Below are positions 2 through 5,946 of a stretch of 5,946 nucleotides of DNA, piece after piece. The notes beneath the pieces are model-generated. The model searched no databases, was not told the origin of the DNA, and saw only the letters and a list, made by a program, of their open reading frames with translations. The translations under genes were made by a program, and so were the position numbers. Origin of the DNA: Anaerolineales bacterium UBA6663 (GTDB lineage Bacteria > Chloroflexota > Anaerolineae > Anaerolineales > UBA6663); NCBI GenBank assembly GCA_002455335.1, contig DKKP01000131.1, forward strand, positions 806 to 6,751. Direction: 5' to 3'. The stretch's first letter is position 1. Each line of letters starts with the position of its first letter.

Positions 2-112
2 GGCGGGGTGGAGATGCATGAGCGTCCTCACCGGCCGGCTATGGGCGGGCCGACTGCGCCGCGCGAGAAGAACGTGGAGCGATCGGGCCTGCGCATCAAG
101 CTGGGCAGTTAA
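2..112 (+). CDS. 3' end of an unidentified gene (partial)
   Basis: An open frame enters from the left edge and ends at TAA 110-112, giving 36 residues that finish in RSGLRIKLGS. Third positions are mostly G or C, as in the genes downstream, which supports real coding. The stop overlaps the Shine-Dalgarno sequence of the next gene, so this is probably the preceding member of the same operon. The visible tail is polar and rich in Pro, Gly and Arg and carries no motif I recognise, so no product can be named. Its identity, outside the window, would be the best clue to the role of the three genes that follow. Confidence 0.6.
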   Translation, partial: GGVEMHERPHRPAMGGPTAPREKNVERSGLRIKLGS

Positions 113-117
113 AGGAG
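111..117 (+). promoter_or_regulatory. Ribosome-binding site of the 125-952 gene
   Basis: AAAGGAG lies 7 nt before the ATG at 125 and overlaps the upstream stop codon (TAA 110-112). This fixes the start at 125 rather than the in-frame Met codon at 140 and suggests translational coupling to the upstream gene. Confidence 0.75.
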
Positions 118-124
118 CAGTCGG

Positions 125-952
125 ATGGCCGAAAGCGAGATGCCTTCCCGCGACGTGATCCAGCATCCCTCGACGGAGCCGATCGTCCTGGTCGGCCCGC
201 CGGAGTCGCTGCAGGGCGAGGTGTTGCTGCACAACACCGGCGCCGAGAAGCTGATTCTGCGCGACATTCGCCTCCGCGGCGATGCCGTGACGCGCCGCGC
301 CGCGGTGGCGGACGGGCCGACTGAGCTGGCGCTGCGCCGCGTGATCCTGCGCCCGGGCCAGCTGCGCCGGATGCCGTTGCAGCTGGCGCTCGGCCCGACC
401 ACGCCGCCCGGCGAATACCACGCCGAGGTGCAGGTCGGCGAGTCGGTGCGCGAGATCGTCATCCATGTCACCGAGGCGGTCCGGCTCGAGATCGACCCGG
501 ACCCCGTGATCGTCGACAACCAGCCCGGTGAGACGATCACCAAGCGCGTCGTCTTCAGCAACCGCGGCAACATCCCGCTGCGCGTCGGCGAGATCGGGGC
601 CGTGGTGCTCGACGAGGAGTTGCTCAACTGCCGCGCCGGGCGGGCGGCGGTGATGAACAGCGGAGAGGGGATGCGCGGGCTGGACGACCTCCTGGCCGAG
701 TACATCCGCCAGACGCGCATCGCACTCAACGAGACCGGGCTGCTGCGGGTGCACAACACGGCCGGGCCGTTTACGCTCATGGCTGGCGAGGTGCGTGCTG
801 TGGATCTCGAGTTCCGCATCCCAGACAATCTCAACCGCCGCTCGCGTTACTTCGGGTTGGCAGCGCTCTACACCAGCAACCTGAGCATTGCTATCACCCC
901 AACTCATGGCGAACGCGTCAAGACGAGCACGCGACGGCGCAGCGCCGAGTAA
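125..952 (+). CDS. Unnamed protein with two beta-sandwich (Ig-like) regions
   Basis: This 275-residue protein has no signal peptide and no membrane segment, so it is probably cytoplasmic. I do not recognise a named family. Residues about 20-117 form alternating beta strands with an Ig-like pattern: HNTGAEKLILRDI near 36-48, a turn RPGQ at 76-79, then TPPGEYHAEVQVG at 93-105. Residues about 120-258 look like a second sandwich: a PGETITKRVVFSNRGNIPL stretch at 134-152, then a helical insertion around 183-203, then strands at 207-258 with YFGLAALYTS at 242-251. The tail is short and basic (RRR at 270-272). It heads a probable operon with the next two genes, which carry related beta domains, so the three products may coat or organise one structure. 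Coding is well supported by the Shine-Dalgarno sequence and codon bias; function is unknown. Confidence 0.85.
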   Translation: MAESEMPSRDVIQHPSTEPIVLVGPPESLQGEVLLHNTGAEKLILRDIRLRGDAVTRRAAVADGPTELALRRVILRPGQLRRMPLQLALGPTTPPGEYHAEVQVGESVREIVIHVTEAVRLEIDPDPVIVDNQPGETITKRVVFSNRGNIPLRVGEIGAVVLDEELLNCRAGRAAVMNSGEGMRGLDDLLAEYIRQTRIALNETGLLRVHNTAGPFTLMAGEVRAVDLEFRIPDNLNRRSRYFGLAALYTSNLSIAITPTHGERVKTSTRRRSAE

Positions 953-972
953 TCGGCGGCGCCGCGTGATCG

Positions 973-980
973 AAGGAGGT
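973..980 (+). promoter_or_regulatory. Strong ribosome-binding site of the 986-1750 gene
   Basis: AAGGAGGT is an essentially complete anti-16S match located 5 nt before the ATG at 986. It establishes that start and suggests a high translation rate for the cysteine-rich protein. Confidence 0.8.
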
Positions 981-985
981 CAAGC

Positions 986-1750
986 ATGGATCGAAGCCCC
1001 TTTGCCCAATATGCCAGCGCGATGTCGGAGTGGACGAAACCCTATTCGCCGCCGCGCTGTGAGGTTTGCGGGCGGGCTCTGGCGACGCCCGGCGCGGATT
1101 GGGCCGGCCAGATGAACCAGTGGTACACGGCGTACCAACCGATGATGGACAACCTGACGCGGATGTGGAGCACGATGGCCCAGCCCTGGCTCGCGCCGAC
1201 GGCGTATCAGGGCTGGCCCGGCACACAGACCCAGCGCCCGGAGCGCCGCCCGCACCACCGAGGGCACCGAGACGAGTGCGACTGCGGTGACCGTGACGGC
1301 TGCCGCGACGATCGCTGCCACTGCCGCTGCTGCATCACGGATGCCGACCTGGTCGTTTATGCGCGTCTCGGCGAGACGCGCGTGGTGCCGCTGACCTTCG
1401 AAAACCCGCGGCGGCGCGAGCGCCAGGTGAAGCTCGAGCTGAGCAACTGGACCAGCCGCGGCGGGACGGCCGGCACGATCAAGGCGCGCTTCCTCGGGCC
1501 GACGGAGTTCACGCTGGCGCCGTGCGCGGAGCGTGAAGCCGTGCTCGTGATCGAGGCGACGCCCGCGAACCAATCGGGCGGTCAGGACGGGCCGACGCGC
1601 ATCGTCATCCCGGACGTCGATGACTGCCAGGTCTTCTACGCCGATCTGCGCGTGGAGGGCTGCGAGATGCGGCCGCTGCGGATCGCGTTGGCGCTACTGC
1701 CCCGCGATTGCGCGGCCCTTAAGGTCGAGTGCGGGTGCGATTGCTGCTGA
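986..1750 (+). CDS. Cysteine-rich protein: helical N-terminus plus beta domain, unnamed family
   Basis: This protein has 254 residues, 17 of them Cys, and no signal peptide. In order it shows: a CxxC pair at 25/28; an aromatic- and Met-rich amphipathic segment at about 39-70 (W39, W46, Y47, Y50, W61, W68); a His/Asp/Arg/Cys linker at about 84-118 with seven Cys (98, 100, 106, 111, 113, 115, 116) and His at 90, 91, 94 and 112; a beta-sandwich at about 122-239; and a C-terminal CGCDCC at 249-254. The Cys clusters could bind metal or form disulfides; neither is shown. The beta domain resembles that of the next gene: FEN at 138-140 against IEN at 137-139, and a matching last-strand pattern Y-A-D-L-R-V-x-G against Y-T-A-R-V-V-V-R-G. 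The gene lies 33 bp after its upstream neighbour and 30 bp before the next. The helical segment recalls phasins, so a role on a cytoplasmic inclusion is possible. Function is unknown. Confidence 0.85.
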   Translation: MDRSPFAQYASAMSEWTKPYSPPRCEVCGRALATPGADWAGQMNQWYTAYQPMMDNLTRMWSTMAQPWLAPTAYQGWPGTQTQRPERRPHHRGHRDECDCGDRDGCRDDRCHCRCCITDADLVVYARLGETRVVPLTFENPRRRERQVKLELSNWTSRGGTAGTIKARFLGPTEFTLAPCAEREAVLVIEATPANQSGGQDGPTRIVIPDVDDCQVFYADLRVEGCEMRPLRIALALLPRDCAALKVECGCDCC

Positions 1751-1770
1751 GCAAGGTCGCCGCGAGAACA

Positions 1771-1779
1771 GGGAGGGGG
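1771..1779 (+). promoter_or_regulatory. Ribosome-binding site of the 1781-2584 gene
   Basis: GGGAGGGGG sits directly ahead of the ATG at 1781, with GGGAGG giving the anti-16S match. It supports this start. Confidence 0.6.
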
Positions 1780-1780
1780 C

Positions 1781-2584
1781 ATGAGCGATGGGCAAAACGA
1801 CTACTACCGCTGGCTACAGGACCTGACGACGCGCTCCGTCGAGGAGCAGACGAGGGCCTACCAGCGCTACAACGACCTCGTGCAGCGCGCCCTGCGCGGT
1901 GAGTTCAACGAGCCTCGGCTTCGTGAAGACCTGCTGCGCTTCGCGACCGAGGAGACCAGCCGCTATACGCGAGAAGTGGCTCAGCTCAGTGTCGACTACT
2001 ACATGAGCCTGCTTGAGCTGGGCCGCCGCACCAACGAGCGCTTCTACGAACAGCTCGTTGGAGGCCGGCGGTCAAGCCGCGATCGCGAACCGCAACGCCA
2101 CGAGGGTCCGGCGGCTCAAAGCCCTCCGCGGCAGGTATCGCTCGAGCTTCAGGGGGAAGTCGGGGCGGCCGCTGCAGCGTCGTTCGTCATCGAGAACAAA
2201 CGCGAGGAGCTCGCCGAGATCAGCTTCCAGATCTCCGACTTCGTCGATCTGGCCGGCGGCGCGCCGTTCGCTGCGGCGCTTCAGGTTCAGCCAGCGCGTC
2301 TGGCGCTGGGCTCACGCCAGGAGGCCGAGGTCACGCTGAGGCTCCCGCTCCCGGCTGACAAGTTCGCGCCCGACCATCGCTACACGGCTCGGGTCGTCGT
2401 GCGCGGCTACGATGAGCTCGAGCTGATCCTGAGCGTGCTCGTGACGCGCGCGGCGCCGCCGCCCGAACCCGCGGCGCCTGAAGTCGAGGTCAAGCCCGAG
2501 CCGTCTCTGCCCCGGAAGCCCCGGCAAACGAAAGCCACCCCGGCCCGCGGCAAGGGGAAACGCACGGGCGGCACGCGGCGCTGA
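1781..2584 (+). CDS. Phasin-like helical protein with beta domain and basic Pro/Lys tail
   Basis: This 267-residue protein has three parts. Residues about 5-95 are strongly helical and amphipathic, with many Tyr, Arg, Glu and Gln (YYRWLQDL at 8-15, YYMSLLELG at 73-81), much like phasins and PhaE-type N-termini. A charged linker (about 96-118) leads to a beta-sandwich at about 119-222. The tail, about 225-267, is rich in Pro, Ala, Lys and Arg (PRKPRQTKATPARGKGKR at 244-261) and is probably disordered; such tails in PhaF- and PhaM-like granule proteins bind DNA. There is no signal peptide or transmembrane helix. It has the same layout as the preceding gene's product, so the two may be diverged paralogues acting together. 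It is the last gene of the block, facing the convergent kinase gene. A granule-surface or nucleoid-tethering role is my inference; a generic coiled-coil scaffold is the alternative. Confidence 0.85.
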   Translation: MSDGQNDYYRWLQDLTTRSVEEQTRAYQRYNDLVQRALRGEFNEPRLREDLLRFATEETSRYTREVAQLSVDYYMSLLELGRRTNERFYEQLVGGRRSSRDREPQRHEGPAAQSPPRQVSLELQGEVGAAAAASFVIENKREELAEISFQISDFVDLAGGAPFAAALQVQPARLALGSRQEAEVTLRLPLPADKFAPDHRYTARVVVRGYDELELILSVLVTRAAPPPEPAAPEVEVKPEPSLPRKPRQTKATPARGKGKRTGGTRR

Positions 2585-5006: not shown

Positions 5007-5861
5007 TCAGAGCCCCTTGATGAGGCCGCCGGGTTGGCACGCCCGGCAGAAGTTCGTGATGCGCTGGTTGGCCGAGATCTCGGCGATCGGCCCGCCGCAG
5101 CGTGGGCAGGGCTGCCCGGCGCGCAGATGCACCTTCATGAAATCGCGGGGCTTGAGATGAATGGCGTCGCCCATCTCGGCGCGGACGAGGTCGCGGGCCT
5201 CGAGCAGGGTGGAACGCATGGCCGCGTACAGGCGCTCGATCTCGGCCACGTTTAGCGTGGTGCGTTTGCGATAGGGATGCAGCTCCGCGGCCCAAAGGAT
5301 CTCGTCGGCGTAGGCGTTGCCGATCCCGGCCACGAACGCGCTGCGGACGAGGATGCCCTTGATCTCGCCCCGGAACGGGCGTAGCCGCTGTTTGAAGTCC
5401 GCGAGCGAAATCTCGAGCGCCTCGGGGCCCATCTCGGCGAAGTCGGGCACGCGCGCCGGGTCGCCTGTGACGTAGATCTGGCCCATGGTCTTGGGGTCGA
5501 AGTAGCGCAGTTCGATCGACGCCGCCCCAGGCCCGGTCAGTGTGAGCACCAGACACGTATCCTTGCGCCGCTTCTCGCCGGGCTCGGCCAGCTGCAGCCG
5601 GCCGCTCAATTTAGGGTTGATCACCAGGCCATAGGGCGGCTCGGCGCGCAGATCGAACACCAGGAACTTGCCACGACGCCTGACTGCCTCAAGCCGCAGC
5701 CCAAGCGCGGCGGTCGCCAGCGGTCCCGCCGTGGCCGTCGCCAGGTCGCGCACCACGATCGCGCCGCCCGGCTGGACGATATCGACACCCGCGATGGTCC
5801 ATCCGATCGCGCGCCGCTCGAGCACTTCGCACACGATGTCGAGTTCAGGGAGTTCGGGCAT
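5007..5861 (-). CDS. mutM: Formamidopyrimidine-DNA glycosylase (Fpg/MutM family), divergent variant
   Basis: This is a bifunctional DNA glycosylase/AP lyase that removes oxidised purines such as 8-oxoguanine and FapyG during base-excision repair. The 284-residue length is near the usual 270-290. MPELPE at 1-6 supplies the catalytic N-terminal Pro (P2 after Met removal) and E3, which fixes the start. K65 in RRGKFLVF matches the conserved beta-hairpin Lys. The helix-two-turn-helix is GIGNAYADEILW at 179-190. The zinc finger has C252, C255, C272 and C275 with C-x2-C-x16-C-x2-C spacing and R267. The DNA-probing loops differ from textbook Fpg: NPKLSG (82-87) stands where HLGMSG is usual, and DPKTMG (122-127) where DPRRFG is usual. 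A Nei-like substrate range is therefore possible. No Shine-Dalgarno sequence precedes the ATG; a large palindrome begins 5 bp upstream instead. An out-of-frame ATG (5867-5869) lies just before the start. Confidence 0.95.
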   Translation of the reverse strand: MPELPELDIVCEVLERRAIGWTIAGVDIVQPGGAIVVRDLATATAGPLATAALGLRLEAVRRRGKFLVFDLRAEPPYGLVINPKLSGRLQLAEPGEKRRKDTCLVLTLTGPGAASIELRYFDPKTMGQIYVTGDPARVPDFAEMGPEALEISLADFKQRLRPFRGEIKGILVRSAFVAGIGNAYADEILWAAELHPYRKRTTLNVAEIERLYAAMRSTLLEARDLVRAEMGDAIHLKPRDFMKVHLRAGQPCPRCGGPIAEISANQRITNFCRACQPGGLIKGL

Positions 5862-5866
5862 AACTC

Positions 5867-5946
5867 ATTTGCGATTGACGATTGGTGATTGGTGATGTCC
5901 ACTGAACCCAGTGGGAATCGCCAATCACCAATCGCCAATCGCAAAT
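5867..5946. repeat. 80-bp near-perfect palindrome made of 7-bp units
   Basis: The left arm (5867-5904) and right arm (5909-5946) are 38 bp each, match as inverted repeats at 34 of 38 positions, and flank the loop AACC (5905-5908). Both arms begin or end with ATTTGCGATTG or its complement. Inside each arm, units of the form GATTGGY (complement AATCRCC) follow one another in 7-bp steps, and the inner tip is CCACTG/CAGTGG. The element reaches the last base of the window, so it may continue. It resembles dispersed intergenic palindromes (REP- or MITE-like) rather than a gene or a classical terminator. Single-stranded, it would form a very stable hairpin just ahead of the fpg start codon. Confidence 0.9.

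Follow-up and report, generated by a model that had tools for sequence, protein, structure and literature searches.

A conserved bacterial gene set, g0-g3, and its possible role as a cytoplasmic scaffold for hydrophobic-metabolite enzymes

The window described here, the whole analysed stretch of 5,946 bases from Anaerolineales bacterium UBA6663 (bases 806-6751 of its 6751-base contig; locus label L003, genome label G000), carries three genes, g1, g2 and g3, which together with an upstream gene, g0, form a set that recurs in distant bacteria. Their products may be parts of a cytoplasmic, metal-braced scaffold of immunoglobulin-like (Ig-like) domains for enzymes of hydrophobic metabolites or for the product of these enzymes, a reading to which a probability of about 0.37 is given. 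It is preferred because a constant set, with Ig domains, a helical hairpin and cysteine clusters, stands beside changing enzymes that probably act on hydrophobic metabolites. Judged by sequence comparison, the set appears to fit no family tested here, and the scaffold function is a proposed one.

Conservation of the four-gene set

The first-pass annotation described an operon of three genes with strong ribosome-binding sites and gaps of about 30 bp. The genes are as described: three open reading frames lie on the forward strand (Table 1), separated by 33 bases (g1/g2) and 30 bases (g2/g3), and by reading a purine-rich ribosome-binding stretch precedes the ATG of each. They are, however, only the last three of four. 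The gene upstream of position 1, which that annotation left to be identified, is g0, located at 642-917 of the contig (g0 profile match, E 1.7e-47), with its end inside the window. Its product ends in RSGLRIKLGS, which is the conserved GLRIRLG-type end. Two gaps of 2 N bases lie in or beside g0 (contig positions 412-413 and 804-805), and the window starts right after the second. Further upstream, at 1-309, is the C-terminus of an acyl-CoA-ligase-type protein, so called by reading and by its common cluster with the full-length ligase of locus L011.

Protein searches (E ≤ 1e-3) return 22 relatives of g3, 31 of g1 and 173 of g2, and the listed relatives of g1, g2 (best 120 of the 173) and g3 include none with a functional name. 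When genome contigs are scanned for two short patterns taken from aligned g2 proteins, 13 loci come out, the titles of which name Anaerolineales/Anaerolineae (3), Phenylobacterium (4), Burkholderiaceae, Erythrobacter, Aurantiacibacter, Nitriliruptorales, "Proteobacteria" and "bacterium". These loci, three from genome searches (L035, L043 and L044) and the window's own contig make up the 17 distinct loci considered here. Single-match loci, with repeats or another family only (L001, L017, L018, L019, L033, L034, L036-L042, L045-L060), are not counted; L002, a 41-base DNA match, is dropped, and L020-L032 are matches of polyhydroxyalkanoate (PHA) synthase. Taxon names are those of the record titles, mostly of metagenome-assembled genomes, in which a contig may be misplaced; by these titles the set is carried by what we take to be three phyla. 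Locus L004 is from Anaerolineales SJ338 (genome G419), a family relative of the window's genome.

By profile matches, all 17 loci have g0-g1-g2-g3 in this order and on one strand, with the sole exception of g3 in L016, where the contig ends. Because g2 was the bait, g0, g1 and g3 are the tests of co-conservation. The first-pass annotation had held that absence of the genes from each other's company in related genomes would refute its reading; this absence does not occur. Between the four proteins, pairwise distances show correlations of r 0.83-0.93 over 15-16 loci, a level reached by 0 of 2000 permutations (g0 of L003, with its N gap, and the two-frame g1 of L007 are left out). Each of the 10 genomes searched has one g1, which in the genome of L007 is in two pieces: at 8927-9720 of that locus it occupies two frames and contains one stop, because of either a faulty assembly or a damaged gene.

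The genes are also rare in the genomes sampled. The window's genome is the only carrier among 400 of its phylum and one of 2 carriers among 400 of its order, and around other carriers the set is found in 2 of 249, 4 of 249, 1 of 2 and 2 of 36 genomes. A phage, plasmid or defence origin is rejected within the collections searched: g2 has no match in phage records (50,697), plasmid records or viral contigs (26 pattern stretches, none confirmed), and PADLOC and PHROGs give none.

Predicted architecture of the proteins

The window's g1, g2 and g3 have no match in Pfam (E ≤ 1), NCBIfam (E ≤ 5), PADLOC or PHROGs, and neither g3 alone nor the profiles of all four proteins find anything significant among PDB sequences (best E 0.4, g1). 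The beta domains of g2 and g3 nevertheless resemble each other, with hhalign values of 93.9% for the first alignments and of 96.4% (E 1.3e-9, 109 columns) for larger ones, and the g3 profile also matches g2 of the window's locus (E 2.7e-5). In predicted models both domains align (VIA-align) with the PapD/ASH/MSP group, and an Ig-like fold of this type is predicted for each. The suggestion that the genes encode paralogous parts therefore holds for these homologous domains of like predicted fold. A helix had also been described as common to g2 and g3, but a confident N-terminal helix is seen only in g3. CEP192, HYDIN, VAP and the pilus chaperones share the predicted fold at identities of ~6-19% (VIA-align rows); by contrast, the domains described here are bacterial, apparently cytoplasmic, and joined to a hairpin in g3 and to cysteine clusters in g2. 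A periplasmic pilus chaperone has two Ig domains per chain, whereas the g2 and g3 models have one each and g1 may have two.

Pilus chaperones among the structural matches of g2 and g3 would suit a surface filament or another exported structure built from the g0-g3 products. This is very unlikely, since reading of g1-g3 reveals no signal peptide or membrane segment, and the neighbours scanned with Pfam (part of the neighbours) include no usher, pilin or secretion family. A cytoplasmic placing is favoured over export because a CxCxCC-type cluster, as found in g2, would fit a reducing cytoplasm.

The richness of g2 in cysteine was missed by the first-pass annotation. In the fold alignment (111 of the 120 listed relatives and the window's protein, nine short ones being left out), 14 cysteine columns are conserved in at least 80% of the 112 proteins. 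The Ig-like domain (residues ~120-240) has a CxCxCC motif at both ends: the first cluster closes with CHCRCC (residues 111-116) and the C-terminal one is CGCDCC (249-254). Within a span of 20 residues ahead of the first cluster, 38 of 112 proteins have at least four histidines; this His-rich stretch is missing in the other 74 and in several g0. The short N-terminal helices of g2 are modelled with pLDDT ~56-58. In the accessible parts of the literature, a plant metallothionein is among the matches for the CxCxCC motif. A metallothionein is by definition small and almost wholly Cys-rich; g2 has 254 amino acids (aa) and an Ig domain, and is Cys-rich only in its clusters.

The predicted model of g3 consists of two confident helices (3-38 and 44-94), which form an amphipathic hairpin, and an Ig domain (118-222). 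Only the Ig domains of g2 and g3 are represented in the VIA-align tables, so the lack of hairpin matches there is not evidence against such matches. Stand-alone proteins that resemble only the g3 hairpin are encoded just 5' of a DUF362 gene in L010 (3066-3359, E 0.027) and L044 (6005-6412, E 3.7e-11). In g3 of L007 (11523-12464, by reading) and in proteins P0020-P0022 a C-terminal helix-hairpin-helix/DUF4332 domain is added.

The hairpin is also what g3 has in common with phasins, and the first-pass annotation, which called the helical parts phasin-like by eye, offered the coat of a PHA granule as an example of the assembly. However, 13 g3 proteins match nine Pfam families (E ≤ 0.1) with no phasin model among them, and the extra Ig domain, the Cys-rich partner and the gene company all differ from those of phasins. 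Neither PhaC_N (PF07167) nor the class III PHA synthase model TIGR01836 has a match in the four Chloroflexota carriers, G000 (estimated 86% complete), G419 (100%), G764 and G766. Because the synthase is missing there, the granule coat is contradicted, and is rejected, for Chloroflexota. PhaC_N is present in the 10 other carriers of the 14 genomes searched, in whose taxonomic groups phaC is common; its match lies on another contig than g0-g3 in 7 of these 10, the other 3 being outside the comparison. A granule surface made of g0-g3 products is thus hardly credible for the set as a whole.

For g1 two Ig-like (NEW3/Fn3-type) beta regions are probable on sequence comparison, in agreement with the two beta-sandwich regions proposed earlier. 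The first region resembles g3 weakly (79%, E 1.5e-5 with larger alignments; 34% with a smaller one, in an hhalign-type comparison), and 9 of 19 g1 sequences reach Pfam models of NEW3 or Fn3-like type (E ≤ 0.1), but the window's own g1 matches neither.

Neighbouring enzymes and the scaffold reading

A simple script served to call the neighbour genes, a minority of which were covered by the family-library scans. In 15 of the 17 loci the set is adjoined by family relatives of enzymes of lipid, isoprenoid, polyketide or acyl-CoA metabolism. The other two, L015 and L016, end at or just past it, and their genomes hold on another contig a 406-aa protein that belongs to a cassette found in ten loci (L005, L008, L010-L014, L035, L043 and L044). 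Besides this protein the cassette comprises a DUF362 protein, a reductase and an SRPBCC-like protein (Table 1). In L006 and L007 its place is taken by a polyprenyl synthetase, which in L007 lies between g2 and g3, and by an SCP2-like protein; L006 also has IspH between g2 and g3, and a B12-type radical SAM protein. In L009 a type I polyketide synthase (KS, AT, KR, ACP, methyltransferase; 11649-17012) begins 9 bases 3' of g3, and in L003 and L004 an acyl-CoA-ligase-type gene precedes g0. The accessible parts of the open-access literature searched contain no description of the g0-g3 set, nor of the ten-locus cassette as a pathway. A further protein of L006 and L007 was labelled CrtC/tocopherol-cyclase-like from a motif seen by eye (Pfam E 0.043 in L007, no match in L006); a search of PDB sequences gave nothing significant for it, and the label is not relied on.

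Two described systems offer a comparison. The cassette reductase (L012) is related to HpnA and SdmB, and L006 has IspH and the radical SAM protein, all known from clusters of hopanoid or sterol type. The reductase, however, stays under the HpnA cut-off and no squalene cyclase is seen by reading. To our knowledge, the g0-g3 set is not part of the described hopanoid clusters. Family 2 encapsulins are assemblies that adjoin isoprenoid enzymes and take up terpenoid (polyprenyl transferase) cargo, and for the polyprenyl synthetases in L006 and L007 f2_encap_cargo4 is the second-best NCBIfam match, below its cut-off. By contrast, no HK97-type shell appears among the neighbours scanned (part of the neighbours), the g2 and g3 models are Ig-like, and a polyprenyl synthetase occurs in 2 of 17 loci.

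Tight coupling to enzymes would also suit a biosynthetic complex in which the four proteins serve as small adaptor or carrier subunits, present a hydrophobic intermediate to neighbouring enzymes and form no particle. The 9-base distance from g3 to the polyketide synthase, the polyprenyl synthetase or IspH between g2 and g3, and the lipid-binding SRPBCC-like and SCP2-like partners (both weak matches) all agree with this. However, the class of enzyme varies between loci and the set does not, a pattern better suited to a general scaffold than to a substrate-specific carrier, and Gly- or His-rich stretches in g0 and g2 of several loci are more usual in assembly parts. This arrangement is considered somewhat unlikely.

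The 406-aa protein has many invariant histidines in 8 aligned copies, and the copies scanned match nothing in Pfam, NCBIfam or PDB; that the protein is a beta-propeller was a reading by eye only and is set aside. It brings in metal storage or delivery, in which Cys-rich g2 and the His-rich stretches of g2 and g0 would load partner enzymes such as this one. The 14 cysteine columns, with a CxCxCC motif on either side of the Ig domain, the histidines of the 38 g2 proteins and those of the partner speak for such a role. It is nevertheless unlikely: the partner is missing from 5 of the 10 carrier genomes searched (G000, G419, G765, G766 and G768), the His-rich stretch is missing from most g2 and from several g0, and storage needs neither Ig domains nor a hairpin.

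In the scaffold reading the products of g0-g3 would bind each other, and the g3 hairpin and the N-terminal helices of g2 would pair with each other, with a partner enzyme or with a lipid surface. The cysteine clusters that flank the Ig domain of g2 would bind metal and lock subunits together, and the assembly would keep in place either the enzymes that make hydrophobic metabolites or what these produce. As the set keeps its order while its enzyme partners change, g0-g3 may be the constant platform and the neighbouring enzymes the exchangeable chemistry.

Several points weigh against the scaffold. Metal, assembly and product are all inferred, from genes and from single-chain models of g2 and g3; the g2 helices are of low confidence in its model, and folds of the Ig-like kind are found in proteins of many unrelated functions. 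Correlated distances are also what shared host descent would yield, so that these indicate co-inheritance and not contact. The only partner visible on the window's contig is the end of the acyl-CoA-ligase-type gene, and the phosphofructokinase and Fpg-like genes that follow g3 there do not follow it in L004. In 10 of the 15 loci with enzyme neighbours the link rests on the HpnA-related reductase, whose HpnA score is 232 against a cut-off of 368 (L012 member), and on the SRPBCC-like protein, matched in only 1 of 5 members scanned. The SCP2 match is likewise below cut-off, and several partner assignments are below curated cut-offs or come from one or two members.

A bolder form of the scaffold is quite unlikely. 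Here g0-g3 would build a new bacterial protein organelle, a metal-locked Ig lattice with amphipathic hairpins around a hydrophobic product, plugged onto terpenoid, polyketide, acyl-CoA and sterol-like pathways across phyla, and of neither the HK97 nor the microcompartment type.

Layout of the window and implications

The coordinates of the set, of the genes that follow it and of the cassette proteins are given in Table 1.

Table 1. Window features (window positions) and proteins of the ten-locus cassette
Feature	Position	Strand	Basis
g0 C-terminal tail	2..112	+	g0 profile match on L003, g0 alignment
g1 ribosome-binding region, aggagcagtcgg	113..124	+	by reading
g1, 275 aa, probably two Ig-like (NEW3/Fn3-type) beta regions	125..952	+	sequence comparison
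g2 ribosome-binding region, gaaggaggtcaagc	972..985	+	by reading
g2, 254 aa: N-terminal helices (low confidence), Cys cluster, Ig-like domain, C-terminal Cys cluster	986..1750	+	alignment and predicted model
g3 ribosome-binding region, cagggagggggc	1769..1780	+	by reading
g3, 267 aa: helical hairpin, linker, PapD/ASH-like Ig domain, basic tail (low confidence)	1781..2584	+	predicted model
Phosphofructokinase, two-domain, 740 aa	2658-4880	-	Pfam
Fpg-like glycosylase	5007-5861	-	Pfam
Cassette DUF362 protein, ~700 aa			Pfam match in L005 and L012
Cassette NAD-dependent reductase, nearest HpnA and SdmB			L012 member scanned, below their cut-offs
Cassette SRPBCC-like protein			Polyketide_cyc2, E 5.3e-5
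Cassette 406-aa protein	L012 6580-7800, and nine other loci	-	63-93% identical to the Aurantiacibacter copy (8 aligned)

A promoter scan of positions 1-2700 gives no sigma-70-type site, which says little for this organism. The two genes 3' of g3 lie on the opposite strand. The tandem phosphofructokinase has two such stretches, the first half with GGDAPG and SIDND and the second with GGAPAPG and SISNN in their place; because of these replacements the second half looks catalytically dead. It may be likened to the regulatory half of the eukaryotic enzyme. An inverted repeat of 38 bases (5867-5946; arms 89% complementary, 4-base spacer) adjoins the Fpg-like gene, and an exact 21-base part of it is absent from all other fetched loci.

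If g0-g3 do form a scaffold, they would add a new mode of organising hydrophobic metabolism in bacteria. Among the carriers, Aurantiacibacter sp. 219JJ12-13 may be culturable; the title of its record does not mark it as a metagenome assembly. Even without the scaffold, the ten-locus cassette of DUF362 protein, HpnA-related reductase, SRPBCC-like protein and 406-aa protein is a candidate for a pathway.
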